Assembly (NCBI GenBank): GCA_014240065.1
Contig: JAAZXR010000019.1
Span: 1-64,000, forward strand
Reading direction: 5' to 3'
Source of the DNA: Myxococcales bacterium
GTDB lineage: Bacteria > Myxococcota_A > Polyangia > Nannocystales > Nannocystaceae
DNA: 64,000 nucleotides
Part shown: in pieces, positions 13,162-34,823 of the stretch
How positions within the stretch are numbered: position 1 is the first letter of the stretch
Layout: every line of letters starts with the position of its first letter
Notes under the pieces: generated by a model
What the model was told of the DNA's origin: nothing
What the model saw: the letters and a program-made list of their open reading frames with translations, nothing else
The model's database searches: none
Position numbers and translations under genes: made by a program

Positions 13162-15606
13162 CTACAGGCTGAAGAGATGCATGAGCTTCAAGAACACCGT
13201 GTCTTCATGTGAAGTCTGGGGTTCTCCGAGGTTGCTGAAAATTCCGGTGGGGTTGAACAAAACGGAACCCTGTTCGCCGAGGAGCGAACGGTGTGTGTAG
13301 GTGGCGAAAAAGAAGCTCCCCGGGAGGTACTCCCAGCGCAGAATCCCGTTCAAGATGAGGCTTGTGGAGCCGACGTCGTAGTTGCCGAGCCACGGACCCC
13401 GCTCGGTTTCTACGAGCCGCGTGGGGTCGCGCAGCTCAAAAAACCGATCATGGGTCGCCGTGGCGTAAAACAGGCGACTCCACACCGACAAGGACAGCCG
13501 CGGCCGAATCCCCACCGTCACCCGCAGGTCGCCGATGGCGTTGTAGGTCTCGGCGGTGCCGAAAATCGGAACACCATCGTCGCGCTCGGCGATCCAACGC
13601 GGGCGACCAAACGTGGCGTGGAACTCACCGCTGAGATCGAAGCGGAGCCGATCGAGGGGGCGCAGGCTGAGCGACGCGGTAGCGTCCGGCCCAGGCTTTC
13701 CGGCCTGCTCGCCATAGCTCGTCCCGAGGTTCGCGACGATCCGACGATCGGTGGGGCTGCGGACGTTGAGCCCGCTCCACCAGTGGATCGGGACCTCGTA
13801 GGGGATGTTGCCGCGGGTCTCGTAGGGATCGAGCTGAGGGAAGTGCCCGCCGACCACGGTGGACACCCGCCACAGCCCCATGGTCTCGAGGACCCACTCC
13901 GTGTTGATCATCTTCTCGGTGATGCGACCCGCGAAGTCGACGCGGAGGTTCGCGTGGGCCTGGGCGTCGAGCTTGCGGATCGAGCGCCCCACGGGCTGCG
14001 CGTTGAACAGGTGGCTGCCGACCTCCAGGGAGGTGTAGTCGGCGAATCGCATATAGCCGAGTCGGTTGAAGTCCGCGTTGGGGGTCAGCATCTCAACCCC
14101 CGCGTGGATCCTCGTTCGCGGCGAGGTGTGTGAGATTCGGCTCGTCGCGCCCATGCCGGTCTTGTCGCGGCGCCGCGTGGCGATGACCTGTCCGCTCTGG
14201 GTCCAGCGCTCGCGAAAACGTATGCGATAGTCGAGGCCGCCGACGAGGCTGTGGTCGTCTCCACGGGTGGGGGCCACGTGGGTCGCGATCATTCCTAGAT
14301 AGCTCTGACTGTCGAACTGGCGCCGAAGTCGCACGGCGGACCACTGGGTTGTCGGCGTGGCCCGCACGGTCGTCGTGTGACCGTCCGAGAACGAGACCTC
14401 CGCCGATGTGGGGATCGTGGTCGCGGTGAGCACCCCGAGGATCCAGCCGGGCGCGACCTCTCCGGTGACGCGCGCCGCGCCGCCGATCCTCGTGACCGGA
14501 TCGAGGGAAGCCAGCGAGCCTTGCTCCTCGGCTCCGCTCACGGTCCTCGTGGTCGGTGCGACGTCGCCAGGGGTGGGGGCCGCGCCCACTCGACGCGAAT
14601 AAAACAGGTTGAAGCTGCTGCTAAATATGTCTCGCGACTCCAAAAAGAACTGTCGTTTCTCCGGGAGAAACACCTCGAAGGGGCCGAGGTTTAAGAACGC
14701 GGCGTCGACCTCTGCTTGTCCAAAGTCGGGGTTGATGGCGACGTCGAGGGTGAGCGTTCCAGACAGTCCGTACTTGAGGTCGAGGCCCGCGTTGGGCAGG
14801 GCTCGCCAGGTGTCGTCGAGGCTCCCCTCCGGTCGCCGAAGGGCACCTCGCAGCGACGCGAACGGGCGCAGCTCGAGGTTGAGCGGCGTCGCGACGTCTT
14901 GAAGTGTGTCGATCGGGACGGCGTAGGAGAGTCGGCCCGGGACACCTTGGGGGGGCGCGGCCAGCCGGCTGGTCTCATTGCCCGAAGAGAGCGTTCGACC
15001 CACGTTGATCGCGAGCTGAGGCGATCCGCCGCGAGGAAAACGCATGGTGGACCACGGCACGAAGAGCTCCGCGGTCCATCCGTCTTCAGTGATTTTTGTC
15101 TTGCTCTGCCACACGCCGTCCCAGAGGCGCTCTTCTTCCACATCTCGTGACAGCTGCGCGTCGACGATGGCGCCCGAGGCCGAGGTCGCGAAATAAAACC
15201 CGTTGGTGTCGTCGTCCCCGGGATCGATCTCGAGGAAGACGAGGTCGCCGGGTTGGGCTTGATCACGCACGAAGAACGGCGCTCGAATTTTGTCGGGGTC
15301 CATGTGGCACGCGAACGCGACGTAGACGCCGCGGCCGTCGTAGGCCACCCGAACCGTCGTCGGCTCCGACGGAGACGCTCCGTAGCGGGGGTTCACCTGC
15401 ATGAGCGCCGGGAGCGGCGGCACCTGCGCCCACTCTTCAGGCTCGAGGGCGCCGTCGACTTGAATGGAGGATTCGTCGAGGCGAGTGGCGCGCACAACGG
15501 CGGGGCCGGCGAGTGGCGCGGGAGGGGCCGCAGAATTCACTGGAGACACCGACGCGACCGATCCATGAAGACCGGCGGCGAGGGCGAAGTTCCAAAGCGA
15601 GTACAT
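13162..15606 (-). CDS. DUF5916 outer-membrane protein with CBM9-like N-terminal domain
   Basis: 814 aa with an N-terminal signal (WNFALAAGLHGSVASVSP). Residues about 40-240 form a family-9 carbohydrate-binding-like domain: SSIQVDGALEPEEWAQ, TTVRVAYDGRGVYVAFAC, FLEIDPGDDDTNGFYFATS and DGWTAELFVPWSTMRFP. The rest matches DUF5916: YGLSGTLTLDVAINPDFGQ, FLPEKRQFFLESRDIF, FYSRRVG, then alternating beta-strand sequence to the end (YLPGSFFFATYTHRSLL). DUF5916 proteins are predicted outer-membrane beta-barrels, often near peptidase or TonB genes; the ligand is unknown. Length is normal for the family. It lies 186 bp downstream of the DUF692 partner gene on the same strand. Confidence 0.85.
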   Translation of the reverse strand: MYSLWNFALAAGLHGSVASVSPVNSAAPPAPLAGPAVVRATRLDESSIQVDGALEPEEWAQVPPLPALMQVNPRYGASPSEPTTVRVAYDGRGVYVAFACHMDPDKIRAPFFVRDQAQPGDLVFLEIDPGDDDTNGFYFATSASGAIVDAQLSRDVEEERLWDGVWQSKTKITEDGWTAELFVPWSTMRFPRGGSPQLAINVGRTLSSGNETSRLAAPPQGVPGRLSYAVPIDTLQDVATPLNLELRPFASLRGALRRPEGSLDDTWRALPNAGLDLKYGLSGTLTLDVAINPDFGQAEVDAAFLNLGPFEVFLPEKRQFFLESRDIFSSSFNLFYSRRVGAAPTPGDVAPTTRTVSGAEEQGSLASLDPVTRIGGAARVTGEVAPGWILGVLTATTIPTSAEVSFSDGHTTTVRATPTTQWSAVRLRRQFDSQSYLGMIATHVAPTRGDDHSLVGGLDYRIRFRERWTQSGQVIATRRRDKTGMGATSRISHTSPRTRIHAGVEMLTPNADFNRLGYMRFADYTSLEVGSHLFNAQPVGRSIRKLDAQAHANLRVDFAGRITEKMINTEWVLETMGLWRVSTVVGGHFPQLDPYETRGNIPYEVPIHWWSGLNVRSPTDRRIVANLGTSYGEQAGKPGPDATASLSLRPLDRLRFDLSGEFHATFGRPRWIAERDDGVPIFGTAETYNAIGDLRVTVGIRPRLSLSVWSRLFYATATHDRFFELRDPTRLVETERGPWLGNYDVGSTSLILNGILRWEYLPGSFFFATYTHRSLLGEQGSVLFNPTGIFSNLGEPQTSHEDTVFLKLMHLFSL

Positions 15607-15792
15607 GCGGGGCAGCGAGCGCTGACAGGGCGCCGGCGCCCGTGAATCTCGGATAATTGACCGTGCTTTTCAACCGCCGCGTACGCTCGAAGCGACCGGG
15701 GCACGCGCCCGGCCCGACGCCGACCGCGCGAGGGCGCGGAGCGCCGGGCAGGGCCCGCTGGCGCGCGGCAGGCTGGCCCCCGAGGGGGCGCG
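15607..15792. other. Spacer with a perfect GC palindrome (15628-15641)
   Basis: Between the DUF692 partner gene and the DUF5916 gene, both on the minus strand. It contains the perfect 14-bp palindrome GGGCGCCGGCGCCC, which could end transcription of the upstream pair or lie in the leader of the DUF5916 gene. It has no T-run. I looked here for a small precursor-peptide gene and found no convincing one. Confidence 0.4.
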
Positions 15793-16626
15793 CTAGCTCG
15801 CCAGATTCGAGCACACGACGACCCCATCCTCACAAAGGTCGCGCAACAGCTCATCGAGATCCTCAAGGCTCGCGTCATGTTTGGCGCCCACCGCCGCCAG
15901 CGCGTTCAGGGGCGCGTCGACCGAGAGCGCCGCCAGCAGGTCGTACATGGGCGCGCTGACGCGGCTGATCTGCGCGCCCCCCTCGGCGTCACGTTGAAGC
16001 AAGAGCGTCTCCGGGGCGCCGGCGCCGAGGGTGAGGTCGGCGCCTTCCCACTCGCCATGCACCGCCGCGTGGGCGGCGGAGACGGCGTGCTTGTCGAGTC
16101 GCTGGATCGTGGCATGGAGCAGATCGCTCGTCCCATTCGGGACCTGGGCGACGCGGGCGTCGGGGCTCAGGGACCATCGCGGAGCGTCACGGCGGGGGGA
16201 GGACGCGCGTCGTCGCCGGACGTCATCGAGGCCGCCTTCGAGGCGCGCGAGCGCGGCGACCTCCGCGTGGCCTACGAAGGTTTCTTCAAGCCAGCGCCCG
16301 AAGGCCCGCACCGTGGAGGTCCGGTCTTCGATGCTGCTGTGAAAGACGGGGCTCGCGAAAAAGTCGGTGAGGGCGGGTTGGGGGGTCCGCAGGAGCGCCC
16401 AGGCGCAGGCGCTTTTGAAGACGCGGAGCAGCGCGGTGACGGTCCTGCTTTGTCGATAGGGATCGCTGCGCCACAGCTCGCGCGCCGGTCGCGTCAACAC
16501 CTCGCGCGCGGTCGCGGAGACATGGACGTCGAGGATGGGATCGACGCCGGCGTCGTAGATGGAGGTGGTCAGCTCCCAGTCGTAGAGCATGCGCACGCTC
16601 ATGCGCTGGAGCGCGAGCGGGCTCAT
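15793..16626 (-). CDS. DUF692-associated partner protein (BufC/HvfC-like)
   Basis: 277 aa. ATG 16626 overlaps the stop of the DUF692 gene (ATGA), so the two are translationally coupled. The helical N-terminal half (SVRMLYDWELTTSIYDAG ... DPYRQSRTVTALLRVF) and the C-terminal winged-helix-like end (MYDLLAALSVDAPLNALAAV ... LLRDLCEDGVVVCS) resemble the partner proteins of DUF692 enzymes (PF09836/BufC, MbnC type), which bind the precursor peptide and hand it to the oxidase. Sequence agreement is weak and the assignment leans on gene pairing. It has no membrane segment or signal, so it should be cytoplasmic. A longer frame upstream is antisense-like and overlaps the DUF692 gene fully, so it was not used. 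Confidence 0.6.
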   Translation of the reverse strand: MSPLALQRMSVRMLYDWELTTSIYDAGVDPILDVHVSATAREVLTRPARELWRSDPYRQSRTVTALLRVFKSACAWALLRTPQPALTDFFASPVFHSSIEDRTSTVRAFGRWLEETFVGHAEVAALARLEGGLDDVRRRRASSPRRDAPRWSLSPDARVAQVPNGTSDLLHATIQRLDKHAVSAAHAAVHGEWEGADLTLGAGAPETLLLQRDAEGGAQISRVSAPMYDLLAALSVDAPLNALAAVGAKHDASLEDLDELLRDLCEDGVVVCSNLAS

Positions 16627-17510
16627 GGGGAGACCTCTTGGAAACAGCGGTGGGCGGTGGTGGCGGCGTGGACCCGCTCGAAACCTTCGAGGGTCTCCTC
16701 CAGGGAGTTTCGCTCGCATTCGTAGACGACGGCCTTGAGGTTGGGAGCGCGCGCGAGCACGTGGTCGAAGATCTCCCACGTGTCCGGGAGCACCGTGGTC
16801 CCGTGATCATCCTCGATAATGTTCTGCCCCGCGTGCTCCTTGACGGAGCTACCCGCCACGTGAAGCTCCACCACGCGGTCGAGGGGGAACGCGTCGAGCC
16901 CCGCGGTCGGCGCGTGCTCGTGCTGCCGCTGGTAGATGGCGAGGTGGGCGCAGTCCAAGAGCATCCCCGTGTCCGCGGCGTCGCAGACGCGGGCGAAGTA
17001 GTCGAGCAGGTGGAGGTCGCCCAAGAAAATCGTCCCGGGGGGATTTTCGGGGAGGACCTCGCGGGAGGTCGCGGATCGGAGTCGTTGAATCCCCTCGGCC
17101 ATGGGGAGGACCGCGTCCGCCGTCAGGAGCGGCGGGAGCAGCAGCATGTTCTCGGGCTCCCGGGGGCCGAAGTGCCAGAGGCCCGCGTCCCCACAGAGCC
17201 ACGCGGGAGCCTCGGCGTCCACGAGCGCGCAGACCTGCGACATCCAATGGGCGTCAAAATCCTCCGGCTCGTCGAGGTTGATGTCGAGGAAGTGATAGGT
17301 CCAGGGGTGCCGGGCGTCGATCCACCGTCGGGCGTCGTCGTCGATACCCTTCGCGATCTCGACGCCGACTTCCAAGAAACACCCGAAGGCCGGGTGCTGC
17401 GCGCGGAGCAGCATGGGATCCAGGGTCTGCCCGGGGGTGTGGGCGCCATACTCCGTCGAGACTCCGATACCGAGTTGAGGGAGGGCGCGGACGCGTGACT
17501 CAAAGCCCAT
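16623..17510 (-). CDS. DUF692 (MNIO-type) iron-dependent oxidase, divergent
   Basis: 295 aa. TIM-barrel DUF692 proteins (MbnB, TglH, BufB) are multinuclear iron oxidases that modify cysteine or other residues of ribosomal peptides. The frame shows the family order: LGIGVSTEYGAH (14-24), CFLEVGVEI (44-52), TYHFLDINLD (71-80), GDAGLWHFG (107-115), LPENPPGT (153-160), GMLLDCAHLAIY (182-193), VVELHVAGSS (213-222), IIEDDHGT (231-238) and VVYECERN (261-268). His, Asp and Glu sit at most places expected for metal ligands, but several motifs differ from the usual (for example LLDCAH where LLDxNN is common), so this is a divergent subgroup. It overlaps its partner gene by 4 bp. No precursor peptide is evident next to it. 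Confidence 0.8.
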   Translation of the reverse strand: MGFESRVRALPQLGIGVSTEYGAHTPGQTLDPMLLRAQHPAFGCFLEVGVEIAKGIDDDARRWIDARHPWTYHFLDINLDEPEDFDAHWMSQVCALVDAEAPAWLCGDAGLWHFGPREPENMLLLPPLLTADAVLPMAEGIQRLRSATSREVLPENPPGTIFLGDLHLLDYFARVCDAADTGMLLDCAHLAIYQRQHEHAPTAGLDAFPLDRVVELHVAGSSVKEHAGQNIIEDDHGTTVLPDTWEIFDHVLARAPNLKAVVYECERNSLEETLEGFERVHAATTAHRCFQEVSP

Positions 17511-17597
17511 CGAGGGAGATCCTACCAGGCCCGCGCGAGCCGTCGCACCTTGAATGTCGCGGCGGGAGGCCAGCGGCCGGCGGGGGGACGCCGTCGC

Positions 17598-34478: not shown

Positions 34479-34823
34479 CTAGCAGCCGCCGTCCTTGGTG
34501 CTGCGGTACGCGCCCGCGCGACAGCGGCCGCGGGCACGCACGCACTCGAGGCTGTACCAGTCTTCGATGCAGCCCACGCCGATCTTCTCGGCGCAGTAGG
34601 CGTGCTCACCAACGGGCACCCCGCGGCTCGCGCGGCACCACTGTACGCAGGAGGTGAAGGCCTCGGAGGTCTTCCCTTGGTCAAAACGCTCCTTGCACGA
34701 GAGCGTGATGCACTTGCGCACCTCGTGGCATGGACTGGCGTCGTCGTCCGACTCACAGCCGCCGAGCCCGCAGAGGGTCAAGGCGAGCGCGGCCCAGCCG
34801 AACTGGCGGGGTGGGAGCTTCAC
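34479..34823 (-). CDS. Small Cys-rich lipoprotein
   Basis: 114 aa from GTG 34823, overlapping the manA stop (GTGA). A lipoprotein signal ends at LCGLGGCES. The mature part (about 90 aa) contains eleven cysteines, including SPCHEVRKCITLSCKERF, SCVQWC, AYCAEKIGVGCIEDWYSLEC and a final GGC, so it is probably rich in disulphides. Spacing of the Cys pairs hints at a repeated helical hairpin, as seen in some metazoan-like or myxobacterial Cys-rich domains, but no named family is recognised. Coupled translation with manA is seen directly; a shared function is inference. Confidence 0.7.
   Translation of the reverse strand: MKLPPRQFGWAALALTLCGLGGCESDDDASPCHEVRKCITLSCKERFDQGKTSEAFTSCVQWCRASRGVPVGEHAYCAEKIGVGCIEDWYSLECVRARGRCRAGAYRSTKDGGC

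Follow-up and report, generated by a model that had tools for sequence, protein, structure and literature searches.

A widespread MNIO and partner gene pair with two changed iron-ligand positions and no neighbouring precursor gene in Myxococcota and Planctomycetota

Background

The multinuclear non-haem iron oxygenases (MNIOs) characterised in the literature surveyed all have peptide precursors as substrates, whose genes normally neighbour that of the enzyme, and their iron site has so far been treated as conserved across MNIOs. MNIO chemistry differs even between close groups, and TglH is one member that works with a partner protein, TglI. In TglH, Fe1 and Fe2 are held by His71, His107, Glu151, Asp184, His216 and Glu258, while Fe3 is held by Asp184, Asn187, Asp229 and His231 (PMC10880893). 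The characterised Std MNIO belongs to a peptide-modifying system and hydroxylates homocitrulline, not Cys (PMC13174530). The precursors of canonical MNIOs are in some cases encoded at other loci, bufferin precursor genes that stand alone have been described, and the possibility that MNIOs modify proteins has been raised (PMC12452194).

Results

Gene pair and genomic context

The window, i.e. the whole stretch of 64,000 nucleotides that was analysed, carries an oxidase gene followed by a partner gene, together referred to here as the module. The features of the locus are as follows.

16623..17510, minus strand: MNIO/DUF692 oxidase, 295 aa (PF05114, predicted fold, alignment)
15793..16626, minus strand: MNIO partner protein, 277 aa (predicted fold; no Pfam or NCBIfam match)
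16623..16626, minus strand: ATGA stop/start overlap of the oxidase and partner genes (sequence)
17511..17597, no strand: upstream spacer, no plausible precursor (ORF scan; flanks of 70 loci)
15607..15792, no strand: downstream spacer, no plausible precursor (ORF scan; flanks of 70 loci)
13162..15606, minus strand: DUF5916 protein, a neighbour only, outside the module (PF19313, 187.5 bits)

The coupled DUF692 and partner pair described in the first-pass annotation was borne out in coordinates, strand and ATGA overlap, and the -4 spacing of the two genes recurs in many orthologous loci. Purifying selection acts on both genes: in each of seven close orthologue pairs, pN lies well under pS.

Oxidase family and fold

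The oxidase is a divergent member of the MNIO (MbnB/TglH/ChrH, PF05114) superfamily. It scored 78.9 bits against PF05114 (DUF692; curated cut-off 25) and fell below the cut-offs of all named NCBIfam MNIO subfamilies (BufB 80/310, ApyH 60/400, HvfB 55/360 and ChrH 22/600 bits), in agreement with the earlier remark that its sequence is unlike known DUF692 subgroups. A search with the ApyH family for a closer named group placed 0 genomes over the cut-off. The AlphaFold model (mean pLDDT 92.9) is a TIM barrel whose top fold matches were TglH (Foldseek E 4e-14 to 8hi7_B), the DUF692 structure 3bww and MbnB; weaker matches included endonuclease IV and sugar epimerases.

Partner protein

No Pfam or NCBIfam match, the DUF2063 signature included, was obtained for the partner. 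Its AlphaFold model (mean pLDDT 90.9) has two predicted parts, an N-terminal helical part (DUF2063-like) and a C-terminal alpha/beta winged-helix-like part (RRE-like), and only three PDB fold matches had E<0.001, namely TglI twice and NGO1945/3dee. By its position after the MNIO gene, its lack of a DUF2063 signature and its predicted TglI/NGO1945-like fold, the second protein is an MNIO partner of the kind named PME-type 2 in PMC12452194. From the fold alone, the RRE-like part is predicted to bind a recognition sequence.

In profile comparison, residues 1-50 of the partner showed weak similarity (E 0.019) to the nitrile hydratase alpha-chain entry 6lk7, a type related to NHLP RiPP leader peptides. 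The partner was also considered as its own substrate through a C-terminal Cys, and this was rejected on the grounds that its Cys residues are not conserved.

Iron-ligand site

Ligand positions were compared in an alignment of 82 oxidase orthologues and 33 canonical MNIOs. The candidate ligand set of the oxidase comprises H73, D108 or A109, E155, D186, H189, H217, D234, H236 and E264. Seven of the nine TglH ligands have retained equivalents (H73, E155, D186, H217, D234, H236 and E264, each invariant or absent from one row only among the 82 members) and two positions are changed. The position of TglH Asn187 is His189 in 82/82 members and Asn in 33/33 canonical sequences, a result on which all alignments agree. 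The position of TglH His107 (S-D/E-H) is His in 33/33 canonical MNIOs and never His in the 82 family members. It corresponds to the invariant Asp108 by MAFFT and by HMMER alignments to 3bww and MbnB, and to Ala109, through a gap, in the profile-profile alignment (hhalign). Asp is favoured here because the Std-type sequence reads C-E-D where the canonical one reads S-E-H. The invariant His113 nearby could also serve as an iron ligand, and alignment leaves Asp108, Ala109 and His113 all as predicted candidates for the residue replacing the lost His.

Both motifs singled out in the first-pass annotation, LLDCAH and GDAGLWHFG, occur in the oxidase and do not reflect chance, as D108, H113, D186 and H189 are invariant and A109 and A188 near-invariant in the 82 aligned members. 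Since Std-type relatives share the change, the altered ligands are read as variation inside the MNIO superfamily, not as exclusion from it. In the alignment, the metal site of the module oxidase differs from that of every studied relative compared.

Distribution and pairing of the module

The module was represented by about 70 distinct orthologues, mainly in Myxococcota and Planctomycetota. In a whole-protein search of 39 relatives, strong oxidase orthologues (49-63% identity) were found in 11 genomes besides the source genome, with canonical MNIOs of the same 39 relatives clearly apart at 20-40% identity. Across 284 Myxococcota genomes the oxidase profile scores were bimodal: about 39 genomes scored 350-494 bits, a handful 118-167 and the rest below 90. 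The scan of GTDB genomes gave 69 loci, including Nannocystis, Enhygromyxa, Paraliomyxa and many Planctomycetota MAGs, a set gathered partly by the pattern CGDAGLWH; the motif is also kept in members found by whole-protein or profile search, independently of that pattern.

Pairing could be scored at 76 loci, two further loci ending too soon. The partner gene lay next to the oxidase in 62 of the 76, was fused to it in eight and was not recognisable in six. Among the 39 related genomes, strong partner profile matches occurred in 12/12 with the oxidase vs 0/27 without it. In one genome (G021) the oxidase and partner lie on different contigs and the partner is retained. The oxidase is the better conserved of the two, with a mean column identity of 58% vs 30% for the partner.

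The relocated partner of G021 (G021:C358:15959-16705, L207; oxidase locus L069) provides a natural unlinked case in one species.

No third conserved gene was found around the module, and neighbours vary by lineage. Recurrent neighbours named by eye (NRDE/TANGO2-like, Der, GlmM, GST and transketolase-like) were rejected as pathway genes, as they recur only within close relatives. In one subclade (L046, L049, L054, L073 and L106) the NRDE/TANGO2-like gene lies directly upstream of the MNIO gene, with a few-base overlap or a 13-base gap.

Placement among MNIOs

In a tree built with the variant columns removed, the module family formed a clade with two further groups, I1 and I2, at 100/100 support against the 33 canonical MNIOs. 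A second, quick tree including MbnB, 3bww and TglH segments recovered the clade with support of 99 and Cys-modifying types outside it, the exact positions of MbnB, 3bww and TglH being unsure there on account of long branches. Both trees were built without PbsC, ApyH and PflD, and StdE is therefore not claimed as the nearest characterised MNIO. Group I1 (L143-L146) consists of an enzyme plus a partner, or of a single protein whose length would suit a fusion of the two. Group I2 (L147 and L015, Myxococcota) has the same Asp and His at the two changed ligand positions. The L147 locus encodes two peptides of 70 residues, with the endings SSNKEWQE and SSAKEWQD, along with a partner, an MNIO, a protein of 1070 residues that matches PatA/PatG-protease and NodU-carbamoyltransferase, and what looks by eye like a YcaO gene. 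Its assignment as Std-type rests on this cluster content, and the ligand pattern was read from L147 and L015, not from StdE. Placement within a non-peptide DUF692 clade, which had been named as grounds for abandoning the original proposal, was not seen; the nearest clade includes peptide-modifying Std-type MNIOs. The SNKEWQE precursor, protease-carbamoyltransferase and YcaO genes were all absent around module loci.

Several related loci are of interest in their own right. The I1 sister family (L143-L146; G105, G206, G062 and G235) carries the motifs LGVGxSxSFG, WLAQDV and LLLDAGH and occurs as enzyme and partner or as a single protein of 620-650 aa, with no evident precursor. The L147 cluster (G242:C156, reverse strand) is Std-like with tandem precursors, of which the one ending SSAKEWQD lacks the Asn that StdGH thioamidates and has Asp for the last Glu. 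The source genome contains another MNIO, of canonical type, to which a partner-like domain is fused (L001, G000:C169, 855-1169 and 1456-3228); the precursor-like lipoprotein gene upstream of it, which contains Cys (tail MLCGEKRCA), is on the other strand, a departure from the usual bufABC arrangement that is also seen in a relative (G001, L025). At L157, L159 and L160 (G191, G260 and G219), canonical-type MNIOs are followed by a protein of 68-77 aa whose resemblance to the partner is confined to the latter's N-terminal part, and a Cys-rich precursor was not seen upstream.

Search for a precursor gene

The spacers at 17511-17597 and 15607-15792 hold only ORFs of 17-42 codons, without family resemblance, and the initial reading that they contain no local precursor was upheld by this ORF scan. 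A small Cys-rich gene within 600 bases upstream was found at 23/41 canonical MNIO loci vs 2/70 module loci, using one gene-calling procedure for both sets and canonical controls mostly from the same phylum. Furthermore, no family of conserved small ORFs recurred widely in the flanks of the 70 loci, the only matches being a ribosomal-protein-like gene and short matches common to two or three close relatives. The nearby precursor gene by which a RiPP cluster is recognised is thus not a feature of module loci, and the discovery of one close by in relatives, which would have spoken against the first-pass annotation, did not follow: no precursor family stood beside the module in 70 relatives. Because of the difference between module and canonical loci in Cys-rich upstream genes, the missing neighbouring precursor is a trait of the subfamily, not an oversight. 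Absence nearby is still compatible with a substrate gene elsewhere, even an ordinary small precursor.

Elsewhere in the window, about 17 kb from the module, 34479-34823 (minus strand) encodes a small Cys-rich protein of 114 aa with a lipoprotein-like signal sequence.

Discussion

Proposed function of the pair

The reading preferred here, to which we give roughly even weight, is that the two proteins form a heterodimer, a multinuclear non-haem iron oxygenase belonging to an MNIO subfamily of its own, and that this enzyme works in trans on a peptide or protein that is conserved, with a residue other than Cys as the probable target. Its computed basis is the fold, the TglI-like partner, the pairing and fusion of the two genes, the missing precursor and the common ancestry with Std-type MNIOs; from these we infer the substrate and the reaction. 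The N-terminal helical part of the partner would dock on the oxidase barrel and the RRE-like part would take hold of a recognition sequence carried by a substrate that the cell makes elsewhere. O2 would then be activated at the iron cluster of the oxidase for the oxidation, most likely the hydroxylation, of a side chain, probably not Cys, on the conserved peptide or protein. The Std relatives, together with the fact that no Cys-rich peptide is linked, make hydroxylation of a C-H bond in a residue other than Cys more likely than thiooxazole-type chemistry, by an analogy that carries hydroxylation over from the sister clade across long branches. The conservation of the oxidase far above that of the partner would suit a single conserved target. 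A narrower version is offered tentatively, as less likely than not: the pair would be a stand-alone oxygenase of MNIO and partner, widespread and with its iron site rebuilt (Fe2 His to Asp, Fe3 Asn to His), that hydroxylates a conserved cellular protein.

Alternative explanations

Where the substrate is encoded can be read in other ways. The pair may be an ordinary RiPP modification pair with a short dedicated precursor at a distant locus in each genome, which we consider rather unlikely. Stand-alone bufferin genes offer a precedent (PMC12452194), and the separated genes of G021 demonstrate that module genes can unlink; however, about 70 neighbourhoods in several phyla revealed no linked precursor-like family or conserved small ORF, canonical MNIOs of the same phylum mostly have a linked one, and TIGR04222 proteins, tried as candidate substrates, are absent from the source genome and do not track the module. 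The first-pass annotation had placed the substrate elsewhere or in a larger protein, perhaps the adjacent DUF5916 outer-membrane-type protein. Its general part agrees with the favoured reading; the DUF5916 part is not supported and is highly improbable. The protein adjoins the module in this window and occurs in all 12 module-bearing relatives examined, but the suggested co-occurrence check found it in 31/39 relatives with or without the module, including 19/27 that lack the module, and it is near-universal in the family (24/25). As no homologue lies beside the module at any other locus, neighbourhood and occurrence data together rule against DUF5916 as the substrate.

The changed metal site invites two further readings. 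A non-peptide enzyme, its barrel turned to small-molecule or non-oxidative chemistry and the partner serving to stabilise it, would account for two iron-ligand positions that differ from all 33 canonical MNIOs, for the weaker fold matches to endonuclease IV and sugar epimerases and for the lack of a linked peptide gene. We regard it as distinctly improbable, given that seven of nine ligands are kept, that the partner retains the two-part TglI/NGO1945-like fold and that this pattern recurs in the Std-type sister clade, whose characterised system modifies a peptide (PMC13174530). The loss of one conserved Fe-binding His could also point to an MNIO without catalytic activity, retained for a binding or regulatory role. 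This is very unlikely: the remaining seven ligands are all but invariant, the residues found at the two changed positions are themselves invariant or nearly so, purifying selection is strong, and activity has been shown for the group that includes the Std-type relatives, which carry the same changes.

A bare pair found in multiple phyla, with no precursor and two changed ligands, provides a direct test of the possibility, raised in PMC12452194, that proteins are modified by MNIOs. Furthermore, the module is a natural ligand variant for the question of what role the third iron site plays (PMC13419390). If the reading as hydroxylation of a cellular protein were true, MNIO chemistry would be a general protein modification and not a step in peptide natural-product synthesis.

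Comparison with known systems

TglHI (3-thiaglutamate; PDB 8hi7) is the best fold match for both proteins and shares seven of the nine ligands, but TglH has His107 and Asn187 where the module family has predicted Asp108 (or Ala109) and His189, and its target is a Cys that has been added to a precursor encoded at the same locus. MNIOs of the bufferin/HvfB type with a DUF2063 (PME-type 1) partner share the MNIO fold and the enzyme-then-partner order; the module oxidase reaches only 80 and 55 bits against their cut-offs of 310 and 360, and the module has neither a Cys-rich precursor nor a DUF2063 signature in its partner. The Std pair StdDE (PMC13174530) resembles the module in that Myxococcota Std-type MNIOs fall in the same clade with the same Asp/His pattern and an RRE-type partner. 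Std loci nevertheless carry SNKEWQE precursors, a protease-carbamoyltransferase and YcaO, none of which accompanies the module, and long branches lie between them. The partner itself matches those of PME-type 2 (PMC12452194), which directly follow the MNIO gene, have no Pfam signature, adopt an NGO1945/TglI-like fold and measure about 260-280 aa, although the known examples sit in clusters with precursors or tailoring enzymes. One published PME-type 2 protein of 276 aa, from Plesiocystis pacifica, is by its description a possible orthologue of the module partner.
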